Source: an uncultured Flavobacteriaceae bacterium
Lineage (GTDB): Bacteria > Bacteroidota > Bacteroidia > Flavobacteriales > Flavobacteriaceae
Reading direction: 5' to 3'
Assembly (NCBI GenBank): GCA_947500525.1
Contig: CANMSH010000003.1
Span: 496,001-560,000 of the forward strand
Length of the DNA stretch: 64,000 bases
The notes below the pieces were generated by a model. That model worked only from the letters and a program-made list of their open reading frames with translations, was not told where the DNA came from and made no database searches. The position numbers were made by a program, and so were the translations under genes. Of this stretch, positions 2,659 to 64,000 are shown piece after piece (position 1 is the stretch's first letter; the number at the start of each line of letters is the position of its first letter).

Positions 2659-3336
2659 TTATTTCTCTCTCGTCAAAACTTCATCAATCATACCATATTT
2701 TTTGGCTTCATCGGCTTTCATCCAATAATCTCTATCAGAATCGTCACTTACTTTTTCTTTTGTTTGACCTGAGTGTTTTGCTATTATTTCATACAACTCA
2801 TCTTTTAATTTCAAAATTTCACGAGTTGTAATTTCAATATCCGATGCCTGTCCTTGCGCTCCACCTAACGGTTGGTGAATCATTACTCTCGAATGTGGCA
2901 AAGCTGATCTTTTCCCTTTTTGACCAGCACACATTAACACTGCTCCCATCGAAGCGGCCATTCCGGTACAAATAGTAGCTACATCTGGTTTTATAAACTG
3001 CATAGTATCGTAAATACCCAGCCCTGCATATACTCCTCCACCGGGAGAGTTTATATAAATTGAAATATCTTTTGATGCATCTACACTTTCTAAAAACAGT
3101 AATTGTGCTTGCACAATATTCGCCACGTAATCATCAATACCTGTTCCCAAAAAAATGATACGATCCATCATTAATCGAGAAAAAACATCAAAAACGGCAA
3201 TATTCATTTGACGTTCCTCGATGATATTTGGTGTCAATCCAACAGGATACATTGCACTAATCATTTTATCATAGTACATGCTATTAATTCCTTGATTTTT
3301 TATAGCGTATTTTTTAAATTCTTCTCCGTAATTCAT
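2659..3336 (-). CDS. clpP: ATP-dependent Clp protease proteolytic subunit ClpP
   Basis: ClpP is the tetradecameric serine protease that degrades substrates unfolded by ClpX. The catalytic triad is visible: Ser129 in GMAASMGA, His154 in MIHQPLGG, and Asp203 in the DRDYWM segment. At 225 residues it is slightly longer than the E. coli protein because of an N-terminal extension of about 30 residues, part of which may be processed. It heads the clpP-clpX-dnaG run. A TATATTTA element, one base off the TAnnTTTG consensus, lies upstream on the minus strand near 3364-3371 and could be its promoter. Confidence 0.98.
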
Positions 3337-3440
3337 GTAAGTGTTTTTTAATGTAATATCTGGTAAATATACTAATTAATTAGATTGAATATAATTAGAT
3401 TAAAAAGTAGTAATCTGATCTAATTTTTAGTCTAAATCAT

Positions 3441-3469
3441 AAAAAAAGCCCTCATAAATTGAGAGCTTT
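3441..3469 (-). terminator. Rho-independent terminator after rpmF
   Basis: On the minus strand AAAGCTCTC and GAGGGCTTT pair across a short loop and are followed by a run of T. It lies just downstream of the rpmF stop and separates the DUF177-rpmF transcript from clpP. Confidence 0.8.
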
Positions 3470-3492
3470 ATAATTTTTAATACAAGAAATGA

Positions 3493-3687
3493 TTAGGCAA
3501 CAGTTTCGCTGTTATCAATAATCACTTGACCTCGGTAGTATAATTTACCTTCGTGCCAGTGTGCTCTATGATACAAATGAGACTCTCCAGTTGTTGGATC
3601 TACAGCAATTTGAGGTGTACTCGCTTTATAATGAGTTCTTCTCTTATCTCTTCTTTGTTTTGATATTTTTCTTTTAGGATGTGCCAT
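3493..3687 (-). CDS. rpmF: 50S ribosomal protein L32
   Basis: L32 is a small basic protein of the large ribosomal subunit. The 64-residue sequence begins [17 protein letters not shown], the family hallmark, and keeps HYKA and the central LYHRAHW segment. This version has no cysteines, so it is the zinc-independent type. It starts 2 bases after the stop of the DUF177 gene, the conserved bacterial pair, and ends at a strong terminator. Confidence 0.98.
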
Positions 3688-3689
3688 CT

Positions 3690-4220
3690 TTATTCTTTTT
3701 TATCTGTTAACAGGTCTTTTAATTTAGACCATCTAGGATCTGTATCCTTATTTTCTGTTGTTTCTTTCGGTTTTAATTCTTCTAACTTATCAAGTATATC
3801 TGATTGTAATGTACCATCTTCAATACCGGGATGTACTTTTTTTACTGGAACCGCTAACACAATCATTTCGTAAATGAATTGTGCTACATCCAATTGAAAT
3901 TCACTGTGTGGAATGATCAAAATATCTTCATTATCATTATTAAATTCGTTTCCAAATTTAACCACTAAATCAAGTGATGTATCTAGAGATTCTTTATAAT
4001 GTTCACTCGTAACATCACACATAACCTCAATTTCACCTACTGCACTAAAATTCAATTCTAGTAAGGTACTTTTCTTAAAAAAATCTAAGTGAACATTAAT
4101 TGTTGCACCTAAAATTTCGTCATATGTATAAGTTTCAAAGAACTTGTTATTAATAACATAATCAAACTGATGTTTTCCTTCTTTTAATCCTACAAAAGGA
4201 ACAATATACGTTTTATCCAT
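3690..4220 (-). CDS. DUF177 (YceD-like) protein upstream of rpmF
   Basis: This 176-residue protein belongs to the DUF177/YceD group, recognised by its position immediately before rpmF and by the central segment with CDVTSE and the FGNEF...[18 protein letters not shown] portion. In proteobacteria and plants, relatives influence 23S rRNA accumulation, so a role in ribosome assembly is likely. There is no signal peptide or membrane segment, and the C-terminal 30 residues are charged. It is probably transcribed with rpmF from the promoter-like element at 4247-4254. Confidence 0.85.
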
Positions 4221-4246
4221 TTTCCTGCAACATCAATTTGAGCGCG

Positions 4247-4254
4247 CAAAGATA
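4247..4254 (-). promoter_or_regulatory. Bacteroidota-type -7 element for DUF177-rpmF
   Basis: CAAAGATA on the plus strand reads TATCTTTG on the minus strand, matching TAnnTTTG, 27 bases before the DUF177 start. No clear TTTG -33 element is seen at the expected distance. Confidence 0.45.
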
Positions 4255-4283
4255 GAAAATAATTATAAAATCAACTAAAAAAA

Positions 4284-5333
4284 TTAACTTTTTACCACCT
4301 TTTTTCTTTGCAATTTGTTTTCTGACAGTTCAATATGATTACTTCGCGCCTTAAATATTTTTATTGCCGAAAATAATGCTTCTTTAAATGAGCTATGGTT
4401 CGCTTTGTTTTGACCTGCAATTTCGTAGGCCGTACCATGATCAGGCGAGGTTCTAATCGCATTCAATCCAGCTGTAAAATTGACTCCTTTTCCAAATGCT
4501 AATGTTTTAAAAGGCCCTAATCCTTGGTCATGATACATAGCCAATACAGCATCAAATCCTTTATATGCTTCTGATCCAAAAAAACTATCCGCTGCATAAG
4601 GACCATAAACCAATTTGCCATTTTCTTGAATACCGGCAAGAGTTGGTCTTATAATTTCGTCATCTTCTTTACCAATAACACCATTATCACCACAATGAGG
4701 ATTTAGACCTAAAACTGCAATTTTGGGTTTTACAATACCAAAATCTTGAATCAATGAGCGATACATTACCGCAACTTTCTTTTCAATTAGCTCTTTTGTA
4801 ATTTTTTCACTAATCTCAGTAACAGGTATATGTCCTGTTATCAAACCAATTCTAATCTCATCAGTCATCAAAATCATGAGACTATCACCTTCTAATTGAG
4901 ATTCTAGATATTCGGTATGACCTTTAAAGTTAAACTTATCAGACTGAATATTATGCTTGTTAATAGGAGCTGTGACCAAAACATCGATATCTTTATTCTG
5001 TAATGCCTTTGTAGCAGCCTGTAAAGATTGAAACGCAAACTCTCCAGCATCTGGAGTTTCCTTACCTAAGTCAATCGGTATATTTTTATCAGAAATAGAA
5101 ATGGCATTCAGTTTCTTCGGCACTGCTCTTTCTATCTTGTTTATGGCATTAACTTGAACTTTTAGATTCATTACCTTTCCATGCACACTAAGGATTTTTG
5201 AAGAGCAAAACAGTATTGGGATACAAAAGTCGAACATTCTAGCATCCTCGAACGTTTTAAGAATAATTTCAATTCCTATTCCATTAATATCTCCAACTGA
5301 AATTCCTACTTTTATTTTTTCATTTTTCTTCAT
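4284..5333 (-). CDS. pdxA: 4-hydroxythreonine-4-phosphate dehydrogenase
   Basis: PdxA oxidises 4-phosphohydroxy-L-threonine in the DXP-dependent route to pyridoxal phosphate; its product is used by PdxJ, encoded at 28986-29699 in this window. The 349-residue protein shows the N-terminal VGISVGDINGIGIEI, the TAPINKHN segment, GHTEYLE with a metal-binding histidine, LNPHCGDNG, and AMYHDQGLGPFK with a second metal histidine, then a C-terminal TSPDHGTAYEIAG. Length is normal for the family. It is divergent from ribE and has its own upstream region of 145 bases. Confidence 0.97.
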   Translation of the reverse strand: MKKNEKIKVGISVGDINGIGIEIILKTFEDARMFDFCIPILFCSSKILSVHGKVMNLKVQVNAINKIERAVPKKLNAISISDKNIPIDLGKETPDAGEFAFQSLQAATKALQNKDIDVLVTAPINKHNIQSDKFNFKGHTEYLESQLEGDSLMILMTDEIRIGLITGHIPVTEISEKITKELIEKKVAVMYRSLIQDFGIVKPKIAVLGLNPHCGDNGVIGKEDDEIIRPTLAGIQENGKLVYGPYAADSFFGSEAYKGFDAVLAMYHDQGLGPFKTLAFGKGVNFTAGLNAIRTSPDHGTAYEIAGQNKANHSSFKEALFSAIKIFKARSNHIELSENKLQRKKVVKS

Positions 5334-7705: not shown

Positions 7706-8314
7706 ATGAAAGAAAAAATTATTTCAAAAGCTACAGAACTCTTTTTAACCTTGGGTTTTAAAAGTGTGACTATGGACGACATTGCTAGTGAAATGGGTAT
7801 ATCAAAAAAAACCATATACCAACATTTCCCTAACAAAAGTAAACTCGTTGAAGATGTAACTTTTAATCTGTTTAATATAATTTGTGACGATATAGATCAC
7901 GTCTGTGACAATTCTAACAACCCAATTGAAGAATTGTATGACATTAAAATGCTAGTGATGAATCATTTAAAAAATGAAAGAGCTTCTCCACAATATCAAT
8001 TAAAAAAATACTATCCGCGAATATATGAGCAATTAAAAGTTAAGCAATTCGAAGTAATGCATGAATCTGTTAAGGAGAGTTTGACAAAAGGGACCGAAAC
8101 CAATCTTTTTAGAAGTGATATTGATATCGATTTTATTGCGAGAATGTATTTCAATGGTATGTTAGGAATTAAAGATCGAACTATTTTTCCTCAACACTTA
8201 TTTACTGTTGAATATTTAATGGAGAGTTATCTTGAATATCACCTTAGAGCGATTGTAACTGAAAAAGGATTAGATATATTAAACAATTTTATAACCACAA
8301 ATCAATCATACTAA
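7706..8314 (+). CDS. TetR/AcrR family transcriptional regulator
   Basis: This one-domain repressor presumably controls the efflux operon that follows. The start at 7706 is chosen because the N-terminal helix-turn-helix begins there (KEKIISKATELF, then TMDDIASEMGISKKTIYQHF at about 26-45) and an upstream TTG-type extension would overlap the promoter. The C-terminal part (about 50-202) is the variable ligand-binding helical domain. Its stop overlaps the next start in TAATG, so it is translationally coupled to the TolC gene. The inducer is unknown. Confidence 0.92.
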   Translation: MKEKIISKATELFLTLGFKSVTMDDIASEMGISKKTIYQHFPNKSKLVEDVTFNLFNIICDDIDHVCDNSNNPIEELYDIKMLVMNHLKNERASPQYQLKKYYPRIYEQLKVKQFEVMHESVKESLTKGTETNLFRSDIDIDFIARMYFNGMLGIKDRTIFPQHLFTVEYLMESYLEYHLRAIVTEKGLDILNNFITTNQSY

Positions 8315-9723
8315 TGAAACGTATTCTTATCATAATCATCTTATTTTCGGCGATTTCGACGAGTTTCTCTCAAGAAAGTATCCTAAATTTAAGTTTAGAT
8401 GAAGCAATAGCATATGCATTAGATAATAATAGAGCTATTGTCAATGCCCAAAGGGATATTGAAGCTGCAAAAAAGCAAAAGTGGGAAACCACAGCAACAG
8501 GACTTCCTCAAATAAATGCTTCTGTAGACTATCAAAACTTCTTGAAACAACCTGTATCGTTGCTTCCAGCAGCAGCTTTCGATAATACAGGAGCGATTAT
8601 AGAAACCGTTGAAGATTTCTTTAATCTAACTTCTAACGGAACACCAGACCCAGTTGAAGGATTTATTCCGGTTCGATTTGGAACGAAGCAAAATATAAAT
8701 GCTACCGTGACATTGTCACAATTATTATTTGATGGTTCGTACCTAGTAGCTCTTCAATCATCGAAAGTTTTCTTAGATATTTCAAAGAATGCCAAGGAAA
8801 AAACAGATCAAGAAGTACGAAAAGTAGTTATAAACGCTTATGGAAATGTATTGTTAGCAGAAGAAAGTATCAAAATATTAGAGAAAAACAAAAATACACT
8901 CATTAAGAATGTGAGTGAAACTCAAAAAATTTATGAAAACGGACTAGGAGAAGAAGAAAGTGTTGAGCAATTACAAATAACACTTTTAGGTGTTGAAAGC
9001 TCCCTTAATAATGCGATTAGACTCAAAGACATTTCTTATAAAATGTTAAATGTAGCCTTGGGAATAGATGTGAAAAGAAAAGTTTTATTAACTGATAATT
9101 TACCCTCATTAACTGCAGAGAATATTGATTTAAATTTAATGAACGCTTCCTTAAATTTAGAAAACAATATCGACTTTAAGATTGCAAAGAATAATGAAAA
9201 ATCGCAAGAATTATTATTGAAATATGAAAAAACGAAAGCGCTTCCAAGTTTAACCGCTTTCGTAAACGGTGGCTATGCAGGTAATAGTGATACTTTTAGT
9301 TTTCTAAAAAGTAATCAACAATGGTTTGGATCTTCGATCATCGGAGTTAGTTTAAACGTTCCTGTATTTAGTTCTTTTGGTAGGTCTGCAAAAACACAAA
9401 GAGCTAAAATTGATTTCGAAAAAGCGAAAACAGAACTTTCTGAGACCGAACAACAATTAAAATTACAAACTGCTAATGCCAAGAGTAATTATCAGTTTGC
9501 CATTGAACAGTATCAAACGGCAAAGAAAAATCTTGATTTATCAGAAAGGATAGAGAAAAAAAATCAAACAAAGTTCTACGAGGGAATATCATCGAGCTTT
9601 GAATTAAGACAAGCTCAAACACAACTATATAGTGCGCAACAAGAATATTTACGTGCCATGTTAGCTGTTATAAACAACAAAACTGAATTAGAAATAGTAC
9701 TAAACGGAACACCTAAAAATTAA
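8314..9723 (+). CDS. TolC family outer-membrane efflux protein
   Basis: The product is the outer-membrane exit channel of a tripartite pump. The 469-residue protein starts with a signal peptide ending near TSFSQ and contains two outer-membrane-efflux repeats: LDEAIAYALDNNRAI near residue 27 marks the first helical hairpin, and a second set of long helices covers about 340-460. It overlaps the TetR gene by one base and is followed 7 bases later by the membrane fusion protein. A second, unlinked TolC homologue sits at 51546-52922. Confidence 0.95.
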   Translation: MKRILIIIILFSAISTSFSQESILNLSLDEAIAYALDNNRAIVNAQRDIEAAKKQKWETTATGLPQINASVDYQNFLKQPVSLLPAAAFDNTGAIIETVEDFFNLTSNGTPDPVEGFIPVRFGTKQNINATVTLSQLLFDGSYLVALQSSKVFLDISKNAKEKTDQEVRKVVINAYGNVLLAEESIKILEKNKNTLIKNVSETQKIYENGLGEEESVEQLQITLLGVESSLNNAIRLKDISYKMLNVALGIDVKRKVLLTDNLPSLTAENIDLNLMNASLNLENNIDFKIAKNNEKSQELLLKYEKTKALPSLTAFVNGGYAGNSDTFSFLKSNQQWFGSSIIGVSLNVPVFSSFGRSAKTQRAKIDFEKAKTELSETEQQLKLQTANAKSNYQFAIEQYQTAKKNLDLSERIEKKNQTKFYEGISSSFELRQAQTQLYSAQQEYLRAMLAVINNKTELEIVLNGTPKN

Positions 9724-9730
9724 ATCAATT

Positions 9731-10864
9731 ATGAAACATTCAATTTACATATTAATCATTGTAGTCTTATTTACTTCGTGCAGTGACAAAGCGAATACTT
9801 CATTAGATCTTACCAAGTTAACATCAAAGAGAGACATTCTAAAAAAGCAATTAGATAGTATAAATAATGAGTTAAAAAATACCGAAGCTGCCATTGCAAA
9901 GTTAGACACCACCAAAAAACTACTCATCGTTACCACCATAAATCCCAAGCTCCAGGATTTCAAACATTACATCAATGTGCAGGGTACCGTTAAAGCTGAT
10001 AAGAGTATTGAGTTACAGCCTGAAATGGGAGGAACGATAACAAAAATATATGTTAGTGAAGGGCAAAGAGTTCGTAAAGGACAAACATTAGCGCAATTTG
10101 ATGCTTCTATCATAAATAGTAATATAGCACAAGTTCAAACGCAATTAAATCTTGCAACGACGACTTTTGAAAGACAAGAACGTTTATGGAAACAAAAAAT
10201 TGGAAGTGAGATGCAATTCCTGCAAGCTAAAGCAAATAGAGAAAGTTTAGAAAGTAATTTGAAATCTCTTCAATCTCAGGCTCGAAAAATGAAAGTTGTT
10301 GCTCCTTTTTCGGGAACGATAGATGAAGTTTTTGCGAAAACTGGAGAACTTGCGTCTCCTCAAATGCCGTTCTTGCGCATTATCAATCTGAATAAAGTCT
10401 ACATAGAAAGTGATATTACTGAAACCTATTTGAAAGACATCAAAAAAGGCACTGAAGTAGTAGTAAATTTCTCATCTCTAGGAAAGGAAATGTCTTCCAA
10501 AATCTCCCAAGTTGGAAGTTTTATCAACCCTAATAACAGAAGTTTTAAGGCACGAGTAGATATTAACAATAAAGACAACGAACTCAAAGCAAACCTTTTA
10601 GCAGATATTAAAATTAACGATTTTAAAGCTAATGGAATTGTACTTCCTAGTTATATTTTACAAAAAGATAGTAAAGGAAATCAATTTGTTTATACCCTTA
10701 AGAATGAAAATGACTCAAATTTAGTTGTAAAAACACTGGTAAACGTTGCTAAAGAATATAATGATGAAGCTTATATTTCTGAAGGACTGTCAGTAGATGA
10801 TTTGATTATTGATAAAGGGTCTCGTTTAGTAAAAAGTAACGATGTAGTTAAACTAGCACAATAA
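9731..10864 (+). CDS. HlyD-type membrane fusion protein of RND efflux pump
   Basis: This periplasmic adaptor links the RND pump to the TolC channel. The 377-residue protein has a lipoprotein signal with lipobox LFTSC at residues 13-17, a short coiled coil (about 30-60), the lipoyl/barrel-sandwich half motif around VSEGQRVRKGQTLAQ, an alpha-helical hairpin (about 130-185), the second half around VVAPFSGTIDEV, and a beta-barrel plus membrane-proximal domain. It lies in the middle of the operon with 7- and 11-base spacers. Confidence 0.95.
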   Translation: MKHSIYILIIVVLFTSCSDKANTSLDLTKLTSKRDILKKQLDSINNELKNTEAAIAKLDTTKKLLIVTTINPKLQDFKHYINVQGTVKADKSIELQPEMGGTITKIYVSEGQRVRKGQTLAQFDASIINSNIAQVQTQLNLATTTFERQERLWKQKIGSEMQFLQAKANRESLESNLKSLQSQARKMKVVAPFSGTIDEVFAKTGELASPQMPFLRIINLNKVYIESDITETYLKDIKKGTEVVVNFSSLGKEMSSKISQVGSFINPNNRSFKARVDINNKDNELKANLLADIKINDFKANGIVLPSYILQKDSKGNQFVYTLKNENDSNLVVKTLVNVAKEYNDEAYISEGLSVDDLIIDKGSRLVKSNDVVKLAQ

Positions 10865-10875
10865 AATAGTATTTT

Positions 10876-13800
10876 ATGAGTATCGAAAAAATAAAAGAAT
10901 TCAAACTATCGAGCTGGGCAATTTCGAATAGAATGACCGTAGCTGTGATCACTTTCATAATAATTTTAAGTGGATTACTCTCTTATGTCAGTATGCCACG
11001 AGAGAATTTTCCCGAAATTGTTATTCCTCAAATTTATATTGCCACTCCTTACCCCGGGAATTCGGCACTAGACATTGAAAAGTTAATTACGAAACCCTTA
11101 GAAAAGGAAATCAATAGTATCACTGGAGTAGATAAGATCACCTCTAATTCTATTCAAGGGTTTTCGAGCATACAAGTAGAATTTAATTTTGACACCACAC
11201 CAGCGGAAGCTTTGCAAAAAGTAAAAGACAAGGTAGATGTCGCTATGTCTGATGCAGATTTTCCAACAGATTTACCTTCAGATCCTAGTGTTACTGAAAT
11301 GAATTTCTCTGAAATGGTGCCCATTATGAACATTAACCTTTCCGGAGAATTTTCAATGGATCAACTCAAAGAATATGCTGAATATTTGGAAGATGAAATT
11401 GAAGAACTTCCTGAAATTTCGTCTGTTGATATTCGTGGCGTGCAAGAGAAGGAAATTGAAATAGCGGTTGATCTATATAAAATGGAAGCTTCTCAAATTA
11501 ACTTTTCAGATATTGAAAACGCCATTTCATTTGAAAATATGAGTGTTTCTAGTGGAGACATTTTGCAAAATGGTGTACGAAGAAATGTTAGAGTTATTGG
11601 TGAATTTGAAAACACCAAAGAAATTGAAGATATTATTGTAAAGCAAGAAGATGGCAATATTGTATACTTAAGAGACATAGCCAGTGTTCATTTTAAAGAG
11701 CAAGAAAAAGAAAGTTATGCGCGAGAATATCTTCAGTCGGTGGTTATGCTGGATGTTAAAAAGCGTGGTGGAGAAAACTTGCTCAATGCTTCTAAAAAAA
11801 TCGATGCGATCATTGCTACTGCCAAAGCCAATAAATTACCTGATAATTTAGTAATTTCTAAAACTAATGATCAATCTAATGATACGAAAACAATGGTTTC
11901 TGATTTAGAAAACAGTATCATTCTTGGGGTTATTTTAGTAGTAACCGTTCTTTATTTCTTCTTAGGATTTAGAAATGCCTTATTCGTAGGAATAGCAATT
12001 CCGTTATCGATGTTTCTTTCTTTTACCATCTTAAGCTTCATGGGGGTGACCCTGAATACAATGGTCTTATTTTCGTTGGTTATTGCGCTCGGAATGCTTG
12101 TTGATAATGGGATTGTTGTTGTAGAAAATGTATATCGATTGATGGATGAAGGTCACTCAAGAATAAAAGCCGCCAAACTAGGAGTTGGAGAAGTTGCCAT
12201 GCCTATAATTGCATCTACTGCGACCACATTGGCCGCCTTTTTCCCTCTTATTTTATGGGATGGCATGATGGGTGAATTTATGAAATGGTTACCAATTACA
12301 TTGATTATTGTGCTGAGTTCATCTTTATTTGTGGCCTTAGTCATTAATCCGATGCTTATCTCAATCTACATGAAGGTATTGCCTAAAAAAAGTACTAAAA
12401 AAACACCAATAGAGAAATTAGAAGGGCGCTATGAACAATTTTTAAAGTTTGCCTTGGGCGGTAAAAAACCTTATGCTTTCGTAATTGGAACCTTTGGATT
12501 ACTGATTTTAGCAGGATTTTTGATGGGCGTATTCCCTCCTAAAACATTGTTCTTTCCAAACACTCAAGCCAAACAAGTCTTTGTTTTCTTAGAGTATCCA
12601 ATAGGTACAGATATTGAGCAAACAAATGAAATTTCTAAGAAAATTGAAAAGGATATAGAAGAACACCTAAAGAAATATGAAGATAACGGAGAGAATTTTT
12701 TAATTACATCAGTTATTGGTCAAGTTGGGGAAGGTACTTCTGATCCTACAATGGGACAACGAGGAGGTAAAACCCCAAACAAAGCACGAATTACTGTTGA
12801 CTTTGTTAAATTTCAAGATAGGAAGGGTGTGGCGACGGAAACCGTTCTAAATGATATTAGAAACTTAGTTCAGGGGTATCCTGGATTAACTGTTGTGGTT
12901 GATAAACCTGCAGATGGCCCTCCAACTGGTGCTCCGATAAATATTGAAATTACGGGTGATGATTATGATTTAATTTTAGATACTGCCAACAACCTAAAAA
13001 ATTTCATTACCGAAGAGAACATTGCAGGAATTGAAGAATTAAAGCTAGATATTGATCAAGGAAAACCTGAAATGCTTATTAACGTAGATCGTCAAAAAGC
13101 GAGGCGTTTAGGTGTATCAACAGGTCAAATAGGATCTAATTTAAGAACAGCACTATACGGAAAAGAAATTTCTACCTTTAAAGATTTAGATGATGATTAT
13201 CCTATAAATGTGCGATTGAAGGAAGCCTATAGATATGACAAAGATGCTTTATTAAATCAAAAAATAACATTTAGAGATCAAAGTAGTGGACAAATTAAGC
13301 AAGTTCCTATTTCGGCTGTAGTTTCAGCAAACAATGCTTCTACTTTCAGCGCGGTGAATCGATTAGATTTAGATCGTGTGATTACTATGTATTCTAACGT
13401 ATTAAATGATTATAACGCTACAGAAGTTAATGATAAAATTAGGACTGCCGTTAAAGATTTTGAAGTACCAAAAGGCATTTCTCTAAGCTTTACAGGAGAG
13501 CAAGAAGAACAGGCAAAAGAAATGGCTTTTTTAAGTAAAGCCTTATTGATTGCGGTATTGTTAATATTCTTAATTATGGTGGCTCAATTTAACTCGGCTA
13601 CTACTCCTATAATAATTTCAATTTCAGTACTATTAAGCTTAATTGGTGTTTTATTTGGCCTATTAATTTTTAGAATGGAATTCGTGATTCTAATGACGAT
13701 GATTGGTATTATATCATTGGCCGGTATCGTTGTGAACAACGCCATCGTACTAATAGATTATATCAACTTAATTATTAAACGAAAACGCAGAGAGTATAAT

Positions 13801-58332: not shown

Positions 58333-58404
58333 GCGAAAGTAGCTCAGGGGTAGAGCATCACCTTGCCAAGGTGAGGGTCGCGGGTTCAAATCCCGTCTTT
58401 CGCT
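58333..58404 (+). tRNA. tRNA-Gly (anticodon GCC)
   Basis: Acceptor stem GCGAAAG/CTTTCGC, D-arm with AGCTCAGGGG, anticodon stem TCACC/GGTGA with loop TTGCCAA, T-arm CGGGTTCAAATCCCG. CCA is not encoded. It is cotranscribed with tRNA-Leu 38 bases downstream. Confidence 0.97.
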
Positions 58405-58442
58405 CTGAGAATATACCAATTTGTAGGTCTTTTGGCATACAG

Positions 58443-58528
58443 GCTCGAGTGGTGGAATTGGTAGACACGCTGGACTTAAAATCCAGTGGACAGTAATGTC
58501 CGTATGGGTTCAAGTCCCATCTCGAGTA
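58443..58528 (+). tRNA. tRNA-Leu (anticodon TAA)
   Basis: Class II tRNA of 86 bases: acceptor GCTCGAG with CTCGAGT (terminal G-T pair), anticodon stem CTGGA/TCCAG with loop CTTAAAA, a long variable arm (TGGACAGTAATGTCC) and T-arm ATGGGTTCAAGTCCCAT. CCA is not encoded. Its 3' end is partially repeated at 58680-58695. Confidence 0.97.
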
Positions 58529-58741: not shown

Positions 58742-59092
58742 TCATATACTCTTGCCATTTTCTGTTCTTTTTAGAAATCCATATTCAAAAACAAATAGAT
58801 ATGTATCTCCTTTGTTATTTTTCCAGTAATGAGTGAAAAAATTAGGATTAAACCCTTCAGAGAGTAAAATTTCTGATCGAACAGTTGCTTTACCTGCCTT
58901 GTTATAAGCCTTTAATATTTTACGATTTAATTTTAACTGTTGCTGTACCTTGTTGTAAAATTTTGGAGTTTCCTCCTGCGATTTTTTGTAATGGTGGGCA
59001 CTCTTACAATATGGGTCACAAAATTTCTTGTCACTTCTGCCTTCTAACTCTTTTTCGCACGATAAGCACCACTTTTTTCTTTCCATATTCAT
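58742..59092 (-). CDS. Small zinc-ribbon protein next to the integrase
   Basis: The 116-residue protein begins with a zinc-ribbon: CLSCEKELEGRSDKKFCDPYCKSAHH, i.e. Cys pairs at about 9/12 and 25/29, followed by a lysine-rich helical part (about 40-75) and a C-terminal segment ending in an aromatic FVFEYGFLKR strand. The zinc-ribbon shape is the DUF2116-like type. I know similar small proteins of unknown function from flavobacteria. It is divergent from the tyrosine recombinase. Confidence 0.8.
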   Translation of the reverse strand: MNMERKKWCLSCEKELEGRSDKKFCDPYCKSAHHYKKSQEETPKFYNKVQQQLKLNRKILKAYNKAGKATVRSEILLSEGFNPNFFTHYWKNNKGDTYLFVFEYGFLKRTENGKSI

Positions 59093-59113
59093 TTTATATA
59101 AATGTATAATATA

Positions 59114-59126
59114 CGAATATTATTCG
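59114..59126. promoter_or_regulatory. 13-base palindrome between divergent zinc-ribbon and recombinase genes
   Basis: CGAATA-T-TATTCG is a perfect inverted repeat lying in the 87-base divergent gap, 22 bases before the zinc-ribbon start and 54 bases before the recombinase start. It has the form of an operator. Confidence 0.4.
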
Positions 59127-59179
59127 AATGATCTACGGTTAAATTATTGATTACCATTATTTTTAGTAAAAATATCTTT

Positions 59180-60304
59180 ATGGAAAAATCAATCACCTTA
59201 AAAAACCTATTCATTAAACAGCAAAAATGCATCGGCTTATTATTCAACGCCGATAAAGTCATAGATGCATTGGTCAAAGAGTTACCAAATCCTATGTGGA
59301 GTAATGAATTTAAAATGCCTTATATATTAAATACTCAAGCAAATCAACAATTGATTTTTGATAAATTTAGAGGTGTTGCTTGGATAAATTGCAATTACTT
59401 TTTTCATGATAGAGTGTTGAACCATAATAATGAAGAAGTTGATCTTAAATGGTTTGATAAAAGGCAAAAAAAGGAAAACTTCAAATCTTGTCCAGAGGAA
59501 TATTTGCAAAAGCTAAAACTAAAAAAATACGCAAACAATACCGTTAGAAGCTATGTGTCTCGATTCGAAGATTTTATCAACTACTATAAAGACATTGAGC
59601 TCATCAAACTTAATGAAAATGATGTCAGGAAATATCTTCAAAAATTAATTGACGAAGAACGTTCGAATTCCTATATAAATGTAAGTATCAACGCTATTAA
59701 ATTTTACTATGAAATGGTATTGGGTATGCCAAATAGATTCTATTCTATCGAGAGGCCTCGAAAAGAATTTAAACTGCCTAAAGTACTTTCTAAAGAAGAG
59801 GTGCTAAGCATTATTGACAACACAAATAATATGAAACATCGCTGTATTGCCAGCCTTCTATATTCGGCAGGACTACGGAGAAACGAATTGCTAAATTTAA
59901 AACTAGAAGATATTGATAGTAAACGTATGCTAATTAATATTAAACAAGGTAAAGGCAATAAAGATCGCAATACGGTTCTTAACCAACGTGTTCTTGAAGA
60001 TTTGAGGAAATACTTTATAGCTTACAACCCAAAAATATATCTTTTTGAAGGTAAAGTTTCTGGCGAAAAGTATAGTCCCTCAAGTGTTTTACAAATTATC
60101 GTGAGGGCCGCTGAAAGAGCCGGAATTAAAGAAAGAGTTACACCACACATGTTGAGGCATAGTTTTGCTACACATTTATTAGAAAATGGAACTGACTTAC
60201 GGTATATTCAACTGTTATTAGGGCATAATTCAACTAAAACAACAGAAATTTACACTCATGTTGCTTCCAATACGTTTGCTGAGATCAAAGATTTATTATC
60301 TTAG
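59180..60304 (+). CDS. Tyrosine-type site-specific recombinase of the cassette array
   Basis: The 374-residue enzyme (ATG 59180; an in-frame TTG at 59147 is rejected) has an N-terminal extension (about 1-100) containing NPMWSNEFKMPYILNT and FDKFRGVAWIN, a SAM-like core-binding domain (about 104-190) and the catalytic domain. Catalytic residues are all present: Arg233 in AGLRRNEL, Lys258 in QGKGNKDR, His323 and Arg326 in HMLRHSF, His349 in LLGHN, and Tyr358 in EIYTH. The Lys258-His323 spacing of 65 residues matches XerC/D and leaves no room for the extra IntI domain. Its gene points into the cassette array. Confidence 0.96.
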   Translation: MEKSITLKNLFIKQQKCIGLLFNADKVIDALVKELPNPMWSNEFKMPYILNTQANQQLIFDKFRGVAWINCNYFFHDRVLNHNNEEVDLKWFDKRQKKENFKSCPEEYLQKLKLKKYANNTVRSYVSRFEDFINYYKDIELIKLNENDVRKYLQKLIDEERSNSYINVSINAIKFYYEMVLGMPNRFYSIERPRKEFKLPKVLSKEEVLSIIDNTNNMKHRCIASLLYSAGLRRNELLNLKLEDIDSKRMLINIKQGKGNKDRNTVLNQRVLEDLRKYFIAYNPKIYLFEGKVSGEKYSPSSVLQIIVRAAERAGIKERVTPHMLRHSFATHLLENGTDLRYIQLLLGHNSTKTTEIYTHVASNTFAEIKDLLS

Positions 60305-60355
60305 CGACATAAGGGATATATAGTTAATATTAATCATATCCGTACGTTGGCAAAC
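60303..60355 (+). other. attI-like recombination site at the 3' end of the recombinase gene
   Basis: Right after the stop codon, GGATAT (60314-60319) and ATATCC (60336-60341) flank a palindromic TTAATATTAA, and the site ends in GTACGTTGGCAAAC. The right half (TTAATC-ATATCC-GTAC-GTT) follows the same spacing as the right halves of the three long repeats further on. It is therefore a short, about 50-base, site of the same architecture and the likely primary insertion site. Confidence 0.6.
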
Positions 60356-60373
60356 ATTTCAAAAACGAACTAA

Positions 60374-60895
60374 ATGACTGAAATTTTATATGGTAAAGCA
60401 AAACTATCCGAGGCTTTACAAATTTCAATTTTAATGAAAACAGTTAATATTCAAGCATATGCTACAGATGGAATTAGACTTGAAATGGCTAATTATATTA
60501 ATGAAAGATTCTCGGAAAAATATGTTGAGGAAGCCATCATAAATAATCCCAATAGATTAATGGTTGCATATATAAATAAAAATCCTATTGGTGTAGCAGA
60601 AATCATCTATGATACTTTTTGTCCCATTAGAAATATTAAAATTCCTGAATTGAGTAAACTTTATGTTTTAGAAAGATTTTACGGTCAAGGAATTGGATAT
60701 AGACTACTTAAGGAAGTAGAAAACGAATTATTAGAAACTGGATTCAATCAACTCTATCTTGAAGTCTTTACTGAAAACCCAAAAGCAATTTCATTTTACG
60801 AAAGACAATTGTATCAAAAAATTGGGGAAGTGGATTTTCCAATGCAAGATAATACATATAAAAACTGGGTTATGACCAAGACATTGAATCAATAG
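60374..60895 (+). CDS. GNAT family N-acetyltransferase (cassette 1, first gene)
   Basis: The 173-residue protein has the GNAT fold: a central strand with PIGVAEIIY, motif A with KLYVLERFYGQGIGYRLL (acetyl-CoA loop Q-x-G-x-G) near 95-112, and the B motif ENPKAISFYERQLY near 140. It lacks a signal peptide and is cytosolic. The ATG is 18 bases after the recombination core. The substrate cannot be told; acetyltransferases are typical cassette cargo in integrons. Confidence 0.9.
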   Translation: MTEILYGKAKLSEALQISILMKTVNIQAYATDGIRLEMANYINERFSEKYVEEAIINNPNRLMVAYINKNPIGVAEIIYDTFCPIRNIKIPELSKLYVLERFYGQGIGYRLLKEVENELLETGFNQLYLEVFTENPKAISFYERQLYQKIGEVDFPMQDNTYKNWVMTKTLNQ

Positions 60896-60897
60896 AA

Positions 60898-61401
60898 ATG
60901 ATTGAAATTAAAAAAGCAGAAAACAGGAGTGATTATGAAATCATCGAAAATTTGGCGACGGAAATTTTGCACGAAGTTTACGACCCAATAATTCCTGCTG
61001 AACACACCAAATATTTTTTGACTGAATTTCAATCGGTAAATGCAATTGGAAATCAAATTGAGAATGAAAATTTCAGTTATTTCCTCTTAAATTTTGATAC
61101 TAAAAATGTGGGATATTTAGGAATTCAAAAACTGAATGAAAAACTGATTTTGAGCAAACTCTATATTTTAGAATCGTTCCGTGGGCTGAAAATCGGAAAG
61201 ACAGCGTTGGAATATGTTAACGGATTTGCAACGGATAACGGATTTGAAAAGATTGAACTAATTGTTAACCAACAAAACAAGAATACGATTAATATTTATC
61301 AAAAAAACGGATTTAAAATAGTGGAATCGATTGTAAACTCATTCCCGAATGGACATTCTGTGGAGGATTATAAAATGGAAAAAATATTGATTATGAAATA
61401 A
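60898..61401 (+). CDS. GNAT family N-acetyltransferase (cassette 1, second gene)
   Basis: The 167-residue protein has motif A LYILESFRGLKIGKTALEYV near 99-118 and motif B QNKNTINIYQKNGFKIVES near 140. The N-terminal part (IIENLATEILHEVYDP) differs from the first GNAT gene, so the two are not a recent duplication. It starts 2 bases after the first gene and its stop is 6 bases before the repeat core. Confidence 0.9.
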   Translation: MIEIKKAENRSDYEIIENLATEILHEVYDPIIPAEHTKYFLTEFQSVNAIGNQIENENFSYFLLNFDTKNVGYLGIQKLNEKLILSKLYILESFRGLKIGKTALEYVNGFATDNGFEKIELIVNQQNKNTINIYQKNGFKIVESIVNSFPNGHSVEDYKMEKILIMK

Positions 61402-61407
61402 AAACGA

Positions 61408-61608
61408 TTTGCCAACAATGGCTAAAATTAATACGGGTTTCAGTGCTTAATCCAAAAGTTAGTGTATTTTTATAAAGTCCGCCAAATCTTTTGATTTGGC
61501 TTTAAAACAGAAAAATTAAAACAAAATAAAAAGTTTTGGCTAATCGCTTAATCCGAAATTAAACATTAATTTAATCCCGTACTAACCTTAGCCTAACCGT
61601 TACCCAAC
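61408..61608 (+). repeat. attC-like recombination repeat 1 (about 200 bases)
   Basis: Left core TTTGCCAAC, then AAT-GGCTAA-AATTAAT-ACGGG; right end CCCGT-ACTAACC-TTAGCC-TAACC-GTTACCCAAC (core 61599-61608). GGCTAA pairs with TTAGCC and ACGGG with CCCGT, with a conserved AA/CC internal mismatch. Inside is a perfect hairpin GCCAAATC-TTTT-GATTTGGC at 61481-61500. Confidence 0.75.
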
Positions 61609-62309
61609 ATTTTGAAATCAGGAATTTATCTTACAAATAGTACCTTAATTTACGAAGCTTTCCCAAAGCAACCATGGCCTAGCTGGCATTGTATTTCGTT
61701 TGAAATCGAACTTCAAGAGATTAAAGTTTTAGCCCTGAGCCCTAGGATGAACTTTGACGATGACCTAACTTTTTTATTAATTGTTTCGAAGAATCATGAA
61801 GTCCATTCTATTCCTCTACGATCTGAAATTTCTAATGGATTATCTGAACTTGAGACTTATTTCAAAATAAATTCAATTTTCGAAGAAACTGTTAATTTTA
61901 AAGATGAAGAATTTGATAGTGGTACCGTCGATAAAATTATTTATCCAAAAAGTCATTATTGGCAAGACTTATTTCATAAAGATTGGAAACTTAAAATTCG
62001 CGGGATTTATGGTCTAATTTGGCCTAAAGTATTTTATGGTAACTTGAAAGTTGAAACTATAAAATAAAGTTGGGTTACAAATGGAAATCACTTAGGCGCA
62101 ACTGTTGCGTAGATGGATTTTTTAGCCAGTTTGCACATGGACTTTCCAATCTTGTGAACAAGCCTACTCTGACGGAAAAAAACGTTGGGTAACAACGTGT
62201 ATAATTAATTACTACGGAATTCCTTCGCAGGAATTCGCTTGAATTAATTAACTTGCAAATACGTCGGAAAATCCTAACGGATTTTCCGTAACTAACCATA
62301 CACAAACCG
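61600..62309 (+). mobile_element. Gene cassette 2
   Basis: It starts with (G)TTACCCAAC at 61599 and its repeat begins with the exact reverse complement GTTGGGTAAC at 62184. A second copy of that core with one mismatch (GTTGGGTTAC) is at 62069, directly after the gene, leaving about 105 bases of uncharacterised sequence between the two. One gene is carried. Confidence 0.7.
61612..62067 (+). CDS. Hypothetical cassette protein
   Basis: I do not recognise this 151-residue protein. It opens at a TTG at 61612 (CAACAT then TTGAAATCA), which aligns with the ATG of the next cassette relative to the core; no better ATG is in range. It has no signal peptide or membrane segment; it is rich in aromatic residues (PKQPWPSWHC, KSHYWQDLFHKDW) and looks like a small soluble alpha/beta protein. 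Its stop is 1 base before a core-like sequence. Confidence 0.7.
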   Translation: MKSGIYLTNSTLIYEAFPKQPWPSWHCISFEIELQEIKVLALSPRMNFDDDLTFLLIVSKNHEVHSIPLRSEISNGLSELETYFKINSIFEETVNFKDEEFDSGTVDKIIYPKSHYWQDLFHKDWKLKIRGIYGLIWPKVFYGNLKVETIK

Positions 62310-62318
62310 TTAGACAAC
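62184..62318 (+). repeat. attC-like recombination repeat 2
   Basis: Left GTTGGGTAAC-AAC-GTGTAT-AATTAAT-TAC; right GTA-ACTAACC-ATACAC-AAACC-GTTAGACAAC (core 62309-62318). GTGTAT pairs with ATACAC, with the same AA/CC mismatch. Two internal hairpins: GAATTCC/GGAATTC and GGAAAATCC/GGATTTTCC. A short TTGCAA in the middle is shared with repeat 3. Confidence 0.8.
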
Positions 62319-63341
62319 ATATGAAGAAGCTTTTACTTTCAATGTTTTGTATTTTCTCATTATCAATAGTTTTTTCACAAAATGAAAGAATTGAAATTAA
62401 ATTGCAGAACTGTACTTATGAACAAATTCCAAATAATGGGAAGGAACTTAAAGATGAAATATATGAGTTTGAAAACTACCTGATTAAGAAAAACATATTG
62501 AGTGATGGAGCTGGTAAAAGTTATATTCATTTATTCAAGCAAATCGAGAAAGAGAATGATGTCCAATTTGATTATAATTATTCATTCACGGATTCAATAC
62601 AAAAAATAATAATCTCCGATATCTATAAACAAATGGATTGCCAAGTTGAATTAATTAATTCCGAGAGCTATCTAAACACCAAAGTTCATAAACTCATATC
62701 TGTTATGGATTCTATTAAAATATCTGGAGATATGATGCCTGCAAATATTGCTAGTGGTATTCTTTCTGTGCTGGATGAAAAGGATTTTGAACTAGAATAT
62801 TACAAAATAAAAACTTTTGTCCTTTTAGATGCTACTAATACGTTTAGTGGAATACCACAAACTTTGGCTAAAGAAGAAAAAGCAAATCTAGATAAAGCTT
62901 TAAAAATTTATATAAATAAAAGAAGTGAGATTTTTGTTGACAGCAAAAAAGTAGGATTTAAAAAATTGAGAAAATTAATTAGAAAATTTGAATCCAAAAA
63001 CAAATCGGAATCTATCATTGCTTTCAAAACGGAAAGAGAAACAAAGTATAAAATATATGTTGATGTAAACAATGCAATTGTAGAAGAAATCCAACATCTA
63101 AGGGAAAAAGTTTCTCAAAAAAAATACAAAATGGAATTTAAAAAACTGACTCCAGAACAGTCATCTGAAATAAAGAAAATTTATCCACAGAAAATAGTTG
63201 AACAATAAATACGTTGTCTAACAACGGCTATAATTCATTGCGGCGGAATTTCCTAAACGGAAATTCTTATCTTGCAATGAAGGCTTGGTAACACGGAATA
63301 GTCCGTGCGGACGGTTCCGCAACGAAACCATAGCCCAACCG
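62310..63341 (+). mobile_element. Gene cassette 3
   Basis: It starts with (G)TTAGACAAC at 62309 and its own repeat begins with the exact reverse complement GTTGTCTAAC at 63213. The gene ATG is 2 bases after the core and its stop 4 bases before the repeat, so almost the whole cassette is gene plus repeat. Confidence 0.78.
62321..63208 (+). CDS. Secreted protein with ExbD-like C-terminal region (cassette 3)
   Basis: The 295-residue product has a signal peptide (MKKLLLSMFCIFSLS, cut near VFSQN). The C-terminal part (about 165-295), including IYVDVNNAIVEEIQHLREK and the ending IKKIYPQKIVE, closely resembles the periplasmic domain of Bacteroidota ExbD proteins of TonB-type energy transfer, but here an N-terminal signal peptide replaces the ExbD membrane anchor and about 140 residues precede it. 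No exbB or tonB gene is nearby. A decoy or modulator role is only a guess. Confidence 0.75.
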   Translation: MKKLLLSMFCIFSLSIVFSQNERIEIKLQNCTYEQIPNNGKELKDEIYEFENYLIKKNILSDGAGKSYIHLFKQIEKENDVQFDYNYSFTDSIQKIIISDIYKQMDCQVELINSESYLNTKVHKLISVMDSIKISGDMMPANIASGILSVLDEKDFELEYYKIKTFVLLDATNTFSGIPQTLAKEEKANLDKALKIYINKRSEIFVDSKKVGFKKLRKLIRKFESKNKSESIIAFKTERETKYKIYVDVNNAIVEEIQHLREKVSQKKYKMEFKKLTPEQSSEIKKIYPQKIVEQ

Positions 63342-63350
63342 TTAGCTTTC
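63213..63350 (+). repeat. attC-like recombination repeat 3
   Basis: Left GTTGTCTAAC-AAC-GGCTAT-AATTCAT-TGCGG; right CCGCAACG-AAACC-ATAGCC-CAACC-GTTAGCTTTC (core 63341-63350). GGCTAT pairs with ATAGCC, TTGCGG with CCGCAA. Internal hairpins GAATTTCC/GGAAATTC and CACGGA/TCCGTG. Confidence 0.8.
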
Positions 63351-64000
63351 ATTTGTTGTAAATAAAAAATGACAAAATATCAATTGACATATCAAGATTA
63401 TATAAGTTCTCTGGATGAGCAATTGTACTTTTTAGAAACATCCCTTTCCAAATTTGGTGAAAATGAAATTGAAGCAAAAAGAATATCAACAGTAATTCGA
63501 GTTTTAGTTCATGACACCAATAACAGTACTTCTTTATTAAAGCATTTGAATAAAAAAGATGAAATGAAATTCATTAATTCCTCTTCACCTAATGATGGGC
63601 GATTACATTCTATGACTGGTATGATTGGCGTAAGAGGCGTTAATGCAGAACAGTATTTTGGACTTGTTGCAAAACTTAATGAAAACGGAATGTTGATTTC
63701 TGTTCCCTTATTTCAACAGCATTTACCCGAATGGATTGAAAAATACTCTAAAATATCTTTCCAGGATTGGTGGTCAATGGAAATTATTAAAATTGGTGGA
63801 ATTAGTTTGACTCGCAAACAAATAATCTTACATGTTGCAAATAAAGACGGAGGTGCGCATATTGATGATTCGCTCCCTGAACAATATCATAAAACCAAAA
63901 AAAGTAAATTGAATTTGAATATTATGGGAATTGATACTGATTTGGAGAGGAATGTTGTATTTGCGTCTGTTGCTCAAATTGGTTGGGAGTTACAAAGTTC
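63342..64000 (+). mobile_element. Gene cassette 4 (partial, leaves the window)
   Basis: It starts with (G)TTAGCTTTC at 63341. Its repeat is outside the window. If the rule holds, that repeat should begin with GAAAGCTAAC. Confidence 0.6.
63369..64000 (+). CDS. Hypothetical cassette protein, 3' end beyond window
   Basis: About 210 residues from the ATG at 63369 (MTKYQLTYQDYISS) are visible and the frame is open at the edge. I do not know its function. The segment VIRVLVHDTNNSTSLLKHL and the motif ANKDGGAHIDDSL near 175-187 suggest a member of a soluble protein group with a conserved GGAHxD. No signal peptide is seen. The start is 18 bases after the recombination core. Confidence 0.75.
   Translation, partial: MTKYQLTYQDYISSLDEQLYFLETSLSKFGENEIEAKRISTVIRVLVHDTNNSTSLLKHLNKKDEMKFINSSSPNDGRLHSMTGMIGVRGVNAEQYFGLVAKLNENGMLISVPLFQQHLPEWIEKYSKISFQDWWSMEIIKIGGISLTRKQIILHVANKDGGAHIDDSLPEQYHKTKKSKLNLNIMGIDTDLERNVVFASVAQIGWELQS

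Follow-up and report, generated by a model that had tools for sequence, protein, structure and literature searches.

An integron-like gene cassette array beside a non-IntI tyrosine recombinase in an uncultured flavobacterium

Introduction

Integrons hold gene cassettes whose two ends are complementary to each other, and the integron integrase gene usually runs opposite to the array. We analysed a 64-kb stretch of DNA (64,000 nucleotides; hereafter the window) from an uncultured Flavobacteriaceae bacterium, positions 496001–560000 of contig C3 (CANMSH010000003.1; assembly GCA_947500525.1) in a 3.59-Mb draft genome of 33 contigs. The window very probably carries an integron-like system, made up of a tyrosine recombinase that is not IntI, a likely attI site and an array of attC-like sites, for which exchange at G^TT is predicted from the sequence. 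Its cassette ends are likewise complementary to each other. As in IntI integrons of the sedentary chromosomal, VCR type, a recombinase and an adjacent attI are joined to a long one-way array with a G^TT exchange point, and the attC-like sites, of about 60–200 nucleotides (nt), have R and L boxes able to pair. Unlike IntI, the recombinase is devoid of the I2 segment, belongs to a separate clade and has an extra N-terminal domain of about 100 amino acids (aa), and its gene is co-directional with the array. The system also differs from IntI integrons in the palindrome that precedes the attI GTT in many loci, in a cassette-specific 7-nt arm that is invariably followed by a mismatch at position 8, and in its little fit to RYYYAAC/GTTRRRY, the core consensus of integrons (PMC3053210).

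IntI with I2 is the mark by which integrons have been defined and sought. An IntI-specific additional domain near patch III serves as a criterion for IntI (PMC9668308; PMC2426708), and Bacteroidota are counted among integron hosts (PMC8618304; PMC9668308). The IntegronFinder 2.0 survey names one complete integron in Bacteroidetes proper, newly found in Salinibacter ruber (PMC9024848). This contrasts with three single-contig genomes of one family in our comparison, which have at least 58 sites each. Among the titles and abstracts listed by searches of open-access journal papers, no flavobacterial attC array or I2-less integron was found.

The cassette array and its likely attI site

A sequence-only reading of the window had proposed a recombinase followed by same-strand units of gene plus repeat, with three complete repeats at 61408–61608, 62184–62318 and 63213–63350. 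All three were refound within a few bases. The first cassette boundary is the G at 60346, 42 bases past the recombinase stop, and the fourth unit leaves the window. Behind the recombinase and the likely attI, the window thus contains three attC-like sites in full and the beginning of a fourth cassette. All parts are listed here with the open reading frames (ORFs) that they carry:

59180–60304, + strand: tyrosine recombinase ORF of 374 aa, from its PF00589, PF13495 and NF040815 scores; predicted models and the I2 count give an N-terminal domain (about residues 1–103), a SAM-like core-binding domain and a catalytic domain, with the I2 segment absent
60318–60348, + strand: likely attI; an imperfect 22-nt palindrome (60318–60339; 9 of 11 pairs by eye), then CCGTAC and GTT
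60347–61599, + strand: cassette 1 with attC1; two GNAT acetyltransferase-like genes (60374–60895 and 60898–61401; PF00583); cassette ends GTTGGCAAACATT / AAACGATTTGCCAAC
61402–61611, + strand: attC1, about 200 nt, cassette 1 head to cassette 2 tail
61600–62309, + strand: cassette 2 with attC2; ORF 61612–62067 (151 aa, TTG start) without family match
62179–62321, + strand: attC2; L boxes of the GTGTAT/ATACAC type
62310–63341, + strand: cassette 3 with attC3; ORF 62321–63208 (295 aa) with a weak ExbD-like match slightly below the Pfam cut-off
63209–63353, + strand: attC3; L boxes of the GGCTAT/ATAGCC type
63342–64000, + strand: cassette 4, truncated by the window end; ORF from 63369 with no family match above cut-off

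Each complete repeat consists of a head (...AAC) and a tail (GTT...). The contig stops 490 bases beyond the window, and the array is therefore cut by the assembly; those 490 bases hold a fourth repeat, the attC of cassette 4 at C3:560023–560148, and the start of a fifth. Genome-wide, an nhmmer profile recovered 63 usable sites, located at contig ends and on small contigs. The repeats are near-identical, so that assembly breaks at arrays are to be expected. A covariance model (R1), built from 45 full-length sites of at most 135 nt, lists 55 sites in this genome. Sites within each contig share one orientation, save one weak partial match on C1, and 41 of 44 cassettes have their longest ORF on the same strand as the attC.

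We infer that the stretch from the palindrome to the GTT is attI, and the crossover would fall between 60346 and 60347. The palindrome in the window comes without an exact first-cassette pair, and its imperfect pairing leaves it outside a list of palindromes compiled from 30 relatives' loci. In 19 of those 30, a palindrome with arms of at least 9 bases ends 2–6 bases ahead of a GTT shortly past the gene. An exact first-cassette pair, starting 30–137 bases behind the gene, is present in 12 of the 30, and palindrome and pair mark the identical GTT in all eight loci that have both.

Cassette ends and the structure of the attC-like sites

For units of exchange delimited by G^TT on either side, the bases that follow GTT at the start of a cassette are expected to recur in inverted form ahead of AAC at its end, and no match is expected between the halves of any one repeat. 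When GTT plus 7 nt was compared with 7 nt plus AAC, a mean of 6.45 of 8 positions matched in 40 cassettes bounded by adjacent sites, against 2.41 of 8 for the two halves of the same site (49 sites); the count excludes sites that lack an anchor and neighbours separated by more than 4500 bases. Shuffled cassette-end partners gave a mean of 2.56 and a maximum of 3.8, and none of 10,000 shuffles reached 6.45. All 40 cassettes have a mismatch at position 8, where the start typically has A and the end C, and pairing resumes beyond it. Two of the 40 match poorly (2/8 and 3/8). In its strict exact form (GTT+7+ATT / AAC+7+AAC), the signature occurs once on the + strand of the 64-kb window, within the array, and is absent from the − strand of the window. 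Cassette 3 departs from it by ATA for ATT, and in cassette 1 nine bases pair before a shift is needed.

The L boxes also pair and co-vary, in the forms GGCTAT/ATAGCC, GTGTAT/ATACAC and GTATAA/TTATAC. In this genome, double changes were seen at two of the six L-box pairs, in 18 and 17 of 45 sites respectively. At 33 loci of other genomes, 206 distinct sites were compared, and 173 of them form all six pairs, as against a mean of 67 and a maximum of 88 when the 3′ boxes were dealt at random (2000 shuffles), a right spacer of 5 or 6 being permitted in real and shuffled sets alike. With the spacer fixed at 5 the result is weaker (3.59 of 6 pairs against 3.00 in shuffles), because half of the sites have a spacer of 6. 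Chance or unrelated repeats are ruled out by the cassette-end and L-box shuffles. The attC logic proposed from the sequence alone is thereby borne out, in that cassette ends are mutually complementary and L-box pairing is kept by paired changes.

The sites show a constant mismatch and unpaired spacers; for attC, two extrahelical bases on the same side of the folded bottom strand have been described (PMC3053210). Fit to the strict core consensus is low, with RYYYAAC in 2 of 59 heads and GTTRRRY in 6 of 53 tails, and GTTR is found in 52 of the 53 tails. Short sites are found in Rufibacter sp. SYSU D00344, and one of these is a clean hairpin of about 60 nt. In predicted folds, the outer stem on the bottom strand averages 12.1 pairs in circle form and 3.2 in arrayed form across 33 cassettes, and the circle form is the more stable in 31 of the 33.

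These features bear on how cassettes would be exchanged. A double-strand, Xer-like exchange at GTT without any single-strand folding is an alternative that we regard as unlikely, while allowing it a real chance. XerA and Xer proteins are closest to the enzyme in sequence and fold, the likely attI is palindromic as a double-strand site would be, and the enzyme has no I2, the element credited with the step to single-strand recombination (PMC7790495). However, binding at one half-site leaves unexplained the co-variation of L'' and L' some 100 nt apart, and folding is far better in the sites than in their shuffles, the z-scores ranging from −3.6 to −6.5 across six strands from three sites. We therefore favour exchange on a folded strand. 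Circular cassettes would be inserted at attI by the recombinase and excised between repeats, with exchange at G^TT, in the fashion of integrons. The enzyme would act on one folded strand, since L'' and L' could come together only through folding. The outer stem would be complete in the cassette circle, with 12 pairs as opposed to 3 in the array, a difference that would make the gain of circles more favourable than the loss of arrayed cassettes.

Linkage to the recombinase and movement of cassettes

In a further alternative, the recombinase is a bystander, and the reshuffling of arrays is due to the host XerC/D or to homologous recombination, for which the near-identical repeats would serve as substrate. 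The repeats of this genome are indeed very alike, and two Xer-like proteins are present. We consider this reading very improbable in the light of the distribution of arrays and of the points at which shared cassettes break.

The distribution was surveyed in a family set of 60 genomes, our own included. A single-sequence search for the recombinase at E 1e-70 finds it in 15 of the 60, and profile A2 at E 1e-60 in 49. Matches to R1 at E 0.01 occur in 50 of the 60, and four have at least 58 sites, including the three single-contig genomes mentioned above. Three or more sites were found in 41 of 49 genomes with the recombinase and in 3 of 11 without it (Fisher p 0.0005), the three-site cut having been set after the counts were known and our own genome being counted (40/48 without it). 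Such linkage is not what a bystander predicts. In regions fetched for the recombinase, sites lie downstream of it on the same strand, the exception being one of four sites in L136. That locus and L135 belong to a single-contig genome (G255) with two recombinase copies that are alike and equal each other in score and identity to the recombinase of the window. The copies are about 1 Mb apart, the attI stretch is duplicated with them, and the sequence after GTT differs in each.

A consensus-free signature was also counted. It is present in 13 of 17 family regions, where shuffles give at most 0.2 per region. It occurs in the orientation of the recombinase in 10 of 80 named loci (24 pairs), with 2 pairs opposite in two further loci. 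Another 16 regions, 15 of them from other families of the class, have it in 10, where 17 of 18 pairs are oriented and 0 opposite, several regions having a single pair; in the named-locus and further-region counts, the strand was told by the A/C mismatch. The recombinase profile is present in 87 of 148 genomes of the class, and arrays need not accompany all of these.

The sequence-only reading had asked whether arrays always adjoin this recombinase family and had proposed a comparison of array content between close strains. Both checks largely support it, the recombinase being upstream and co-directional, and content differing between close relatives while single cassettes are common to them whole. 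Scattered repeats without a linked recombinase, and identical, non-mobile arrays, had been named as the signs against it; mostly the opposite was seen. The exceptions weigh against our interpretation. Three genomes without the recombinase have three or more sites (G017 with 21, G034 with 5 and G052 with 12), which speaks for a bystander. Among arrays of at least three sites that were fetched by their sites and have their start in view, the recombinase comes first in L138, L142 and L146, but not in L145. No recombinase is in view at the two-site groups L148 and L150.

Genome comparison points to movement of whole cassettes. A genome of the same genus (G268) is 92.1% identical to the window over the 1349 bases compared (59001 to 60349), and its recombinase is 97% identical at the protein level. 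The match breaks off at ...CGTACGTTG, position 60349, 45 bases past the gene end, which is the proposed attI exchange point. Past attI, 16.5 kb of G268 hold 21 sites and therefore 21 cassettes, which were compared with the loci of our own genome (L007, L008 and L039–L058). One of the 21 is common to both genomes at full length, attC included, and with 100% identity. It is bounded by AACCG|TTACC at its start and by the ...AACCG|TT of its attC, and the repeats that precede it in the two genomes are of different types. Two further cassettes match in part alone (80–84%). Flavobacterium enshiense DK69 (L166) and G306 have 1442 bp in common at 99.93% identity, with unlike flanks; this unit runs from AC|GTTAG to CGTTA, the latter following an attC that is of a third type. 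G306 carries the family label f76, and the window f1. Between G050 and Algoriphagus ornithinivorans, a stretch of 636 bp is 97.2% identical; it begins at CG|TTGTG but stops short of the attC. The comparison among all loci considered gave 32 match rows in all, the others being backbone or not resolved to cassettes.

Homologous exchange would break anywhere within the repeat of about 125 nt, whereas GTT is the break point on each side of both shared cassettes that were resolved in full, one of them behind unlike repeat types. We therefore take the array recombinase to be the probable enzyme of cassette exchange. That the repeats are ordinary intergenic elements, such as terminators or REP-like sequences with no role in gene mobility, is hardly credible: they fold and sit between co-directional genes, but this reading has no place for cassette-specific complementary ends or the sharing of whole units, and, barring assembly artefacts in the shared units, these refute it.

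The recombinase

The recombinase scores 140.8 bits against PF00589 and 45.8 bits against PF13495. It passes the curated cut-off of 220 of the XerA-type family NF040815 with 223.8 bits and misses the cut-off of 265 of TIGR02249 (IntI) with 193.7 bits. The region of I2 measures 26–27 residues in 27 of 27 members of the recombinase family and 68 in 30 of 30 Bacteroidota IntI, the latter being the best 30 of the Bacteroidota matches above the IntI cut-off. Between two matched stretches, the Vibrio enzyme VchIntIA (PDB 2a3v) has 61 residues where that of the window has 20. Family and IntI form separate clades with supports of 96/92 and 98/99, in a tree with just two Xer rows and several long branches.

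That the system is an ordinary integron with a diverged IntI is, in our judgement, less probable still than a bystander recombinase. The score of 193.7 bits against TIGR02249 would be in keeping with it, as would the integron logic that the arrays obey and the report that the insertion is not fully conserved in an integron-like subgroup, yet is essential for integron function (PMC8138268). For such insertion-less enzymes, the consulted sections of PMC8138268 report no arrays or attC sites, unlike here. Database names also speak for IntI. NF040815 is itself described as 'site-specific tyrosine recombinase/integron integrase', a name that NCBI automatic naming gives to some relatives of the recombinase, and that of Algibacter lectus is called 'integron integrase intI2'. 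Named relatives at about 70% identity are from Algibacter, Lacinutrix and Winogradskyella, which are Flavobacteriaceae. Nevertheless, the lengths of the I2 region do not overlap, the clades are separate and supported, the IntI cut-off is missed, heads and tails rarely fit the core consensus, and integrases above the IntI cut-off exist elsewhere in the phylum. On the combination of I2 length and tree we reject a divergent IntI. The call of a non-IntI recombinase made from the sequence alone is supported. The accompanying description as a Bacteroidota counterpart of the integron needs one qualification, as integrases above the IntI cut-off occur in 57 of 198 Bacteroidota genomes sampled, just 1 of those 57 in the class of the window.

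Compared with XerA-type recombinases (NF040815; PDB 5hxy, 4a8e), the enzyme has an N-terminal extension and adjoins cassette arrays. A role in chromosome dimer resolution is unlikely for it, because the genome carries two further Xer-like proteins. A Pfam scan of the N-terminal domain returned no useful match; in a fold search with the N-terminal 103 residues, the best matches, which were weak, were archaeal XPB chains, with HARP at row 31. This extra domain might stand in for I2 by helping in the recognition of the folded site, which is the weakest step of the proposed mechanism.

A second recombinase of the same group, 38% identical, lies at C2:4989–6068 (L008) beside its own array. Five sites were detected in this second array, which reaches the contig start. 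A further recombinase, unlike these, is found at C2:8448–9182. Two tRNA-like genes, recognised by eye, are located directly upstream of the recombinase of the window, at 58335–58527.

When 45 cassette proteins of this genome were scanned against Pfam, matches were obtained to GNAT acetyltransferases (2), the PF00144 serine-hydrolase/beta-lactamase fold (5) and DUF6090 (2). Single matches were to TIR (ThsB-like), SIR2-like, ParE-like, Tdi1-type immunity and M23 peptidase families.

Plasmids, phages and tet(X3)

At a limit of E 1e-30, a search of 50,697 phage records for the recombinase yields a single match (5e-34, 53% coverage). Among plasmids, 356 records match at the same limit, 9 of them over 80% of its length. 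A phage- or plasmid-borne platform was rejected on these searches, and the platform of the window appears to be chromosomal.

A plasmid of Chryseobacterium sp. SNU WT5 (L233, NZ_CP041688.1) carries at 7956–12216 a recombinase annotated as 'site-specific tyrosine recombinase/integron integrase'. Three cassette-end pairs lie behind it, one exact and two with one mismatch.

An Acinetobacter baylyi plasmid (L232, NZ_CP104735.1) contains, at 2967–4988, a short recombinase related to that of the window, followed by a palindrome resembling attI, a cassette-start signature and then tet(X3). The recombinase gene is N-terminally short, 52.8% identical to residues 143–373, and located behind an ISVsa3 transposase gene. 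Here tet(X3) occupies the position of a first cassette, and its downstream end is worn and matches in part alone. In the literature this recombinase gene is named xerD, with its role left open (PMC7494873; PMC7473080).

Significance

Beyond the system in the window, a wider picture is possible, which we put forward tentatively and with more doubt than belief. Bacteroidia may have a second, class-wide integron lineage in which folded single-stranded attC sites are read without I2 by way of an XPB/HARP-like N-terminal domain. A 7-nt 'barcode' stem, complete in the circle alone, would favour capture, and such a system may have delivered tet(X3) to Acinetobacter. If the system proposed for the window is as we describe it, the 'xerD' often found beside tet(X) genes, the role of which was left open (PMC7473080), would gain a concrete reading. 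The claim that I2 enabled single-strand cassette recombination would become testable on a natural enzyme without I2, and bacteria of a major class would have a large system of gene exchange that has been overlooked.

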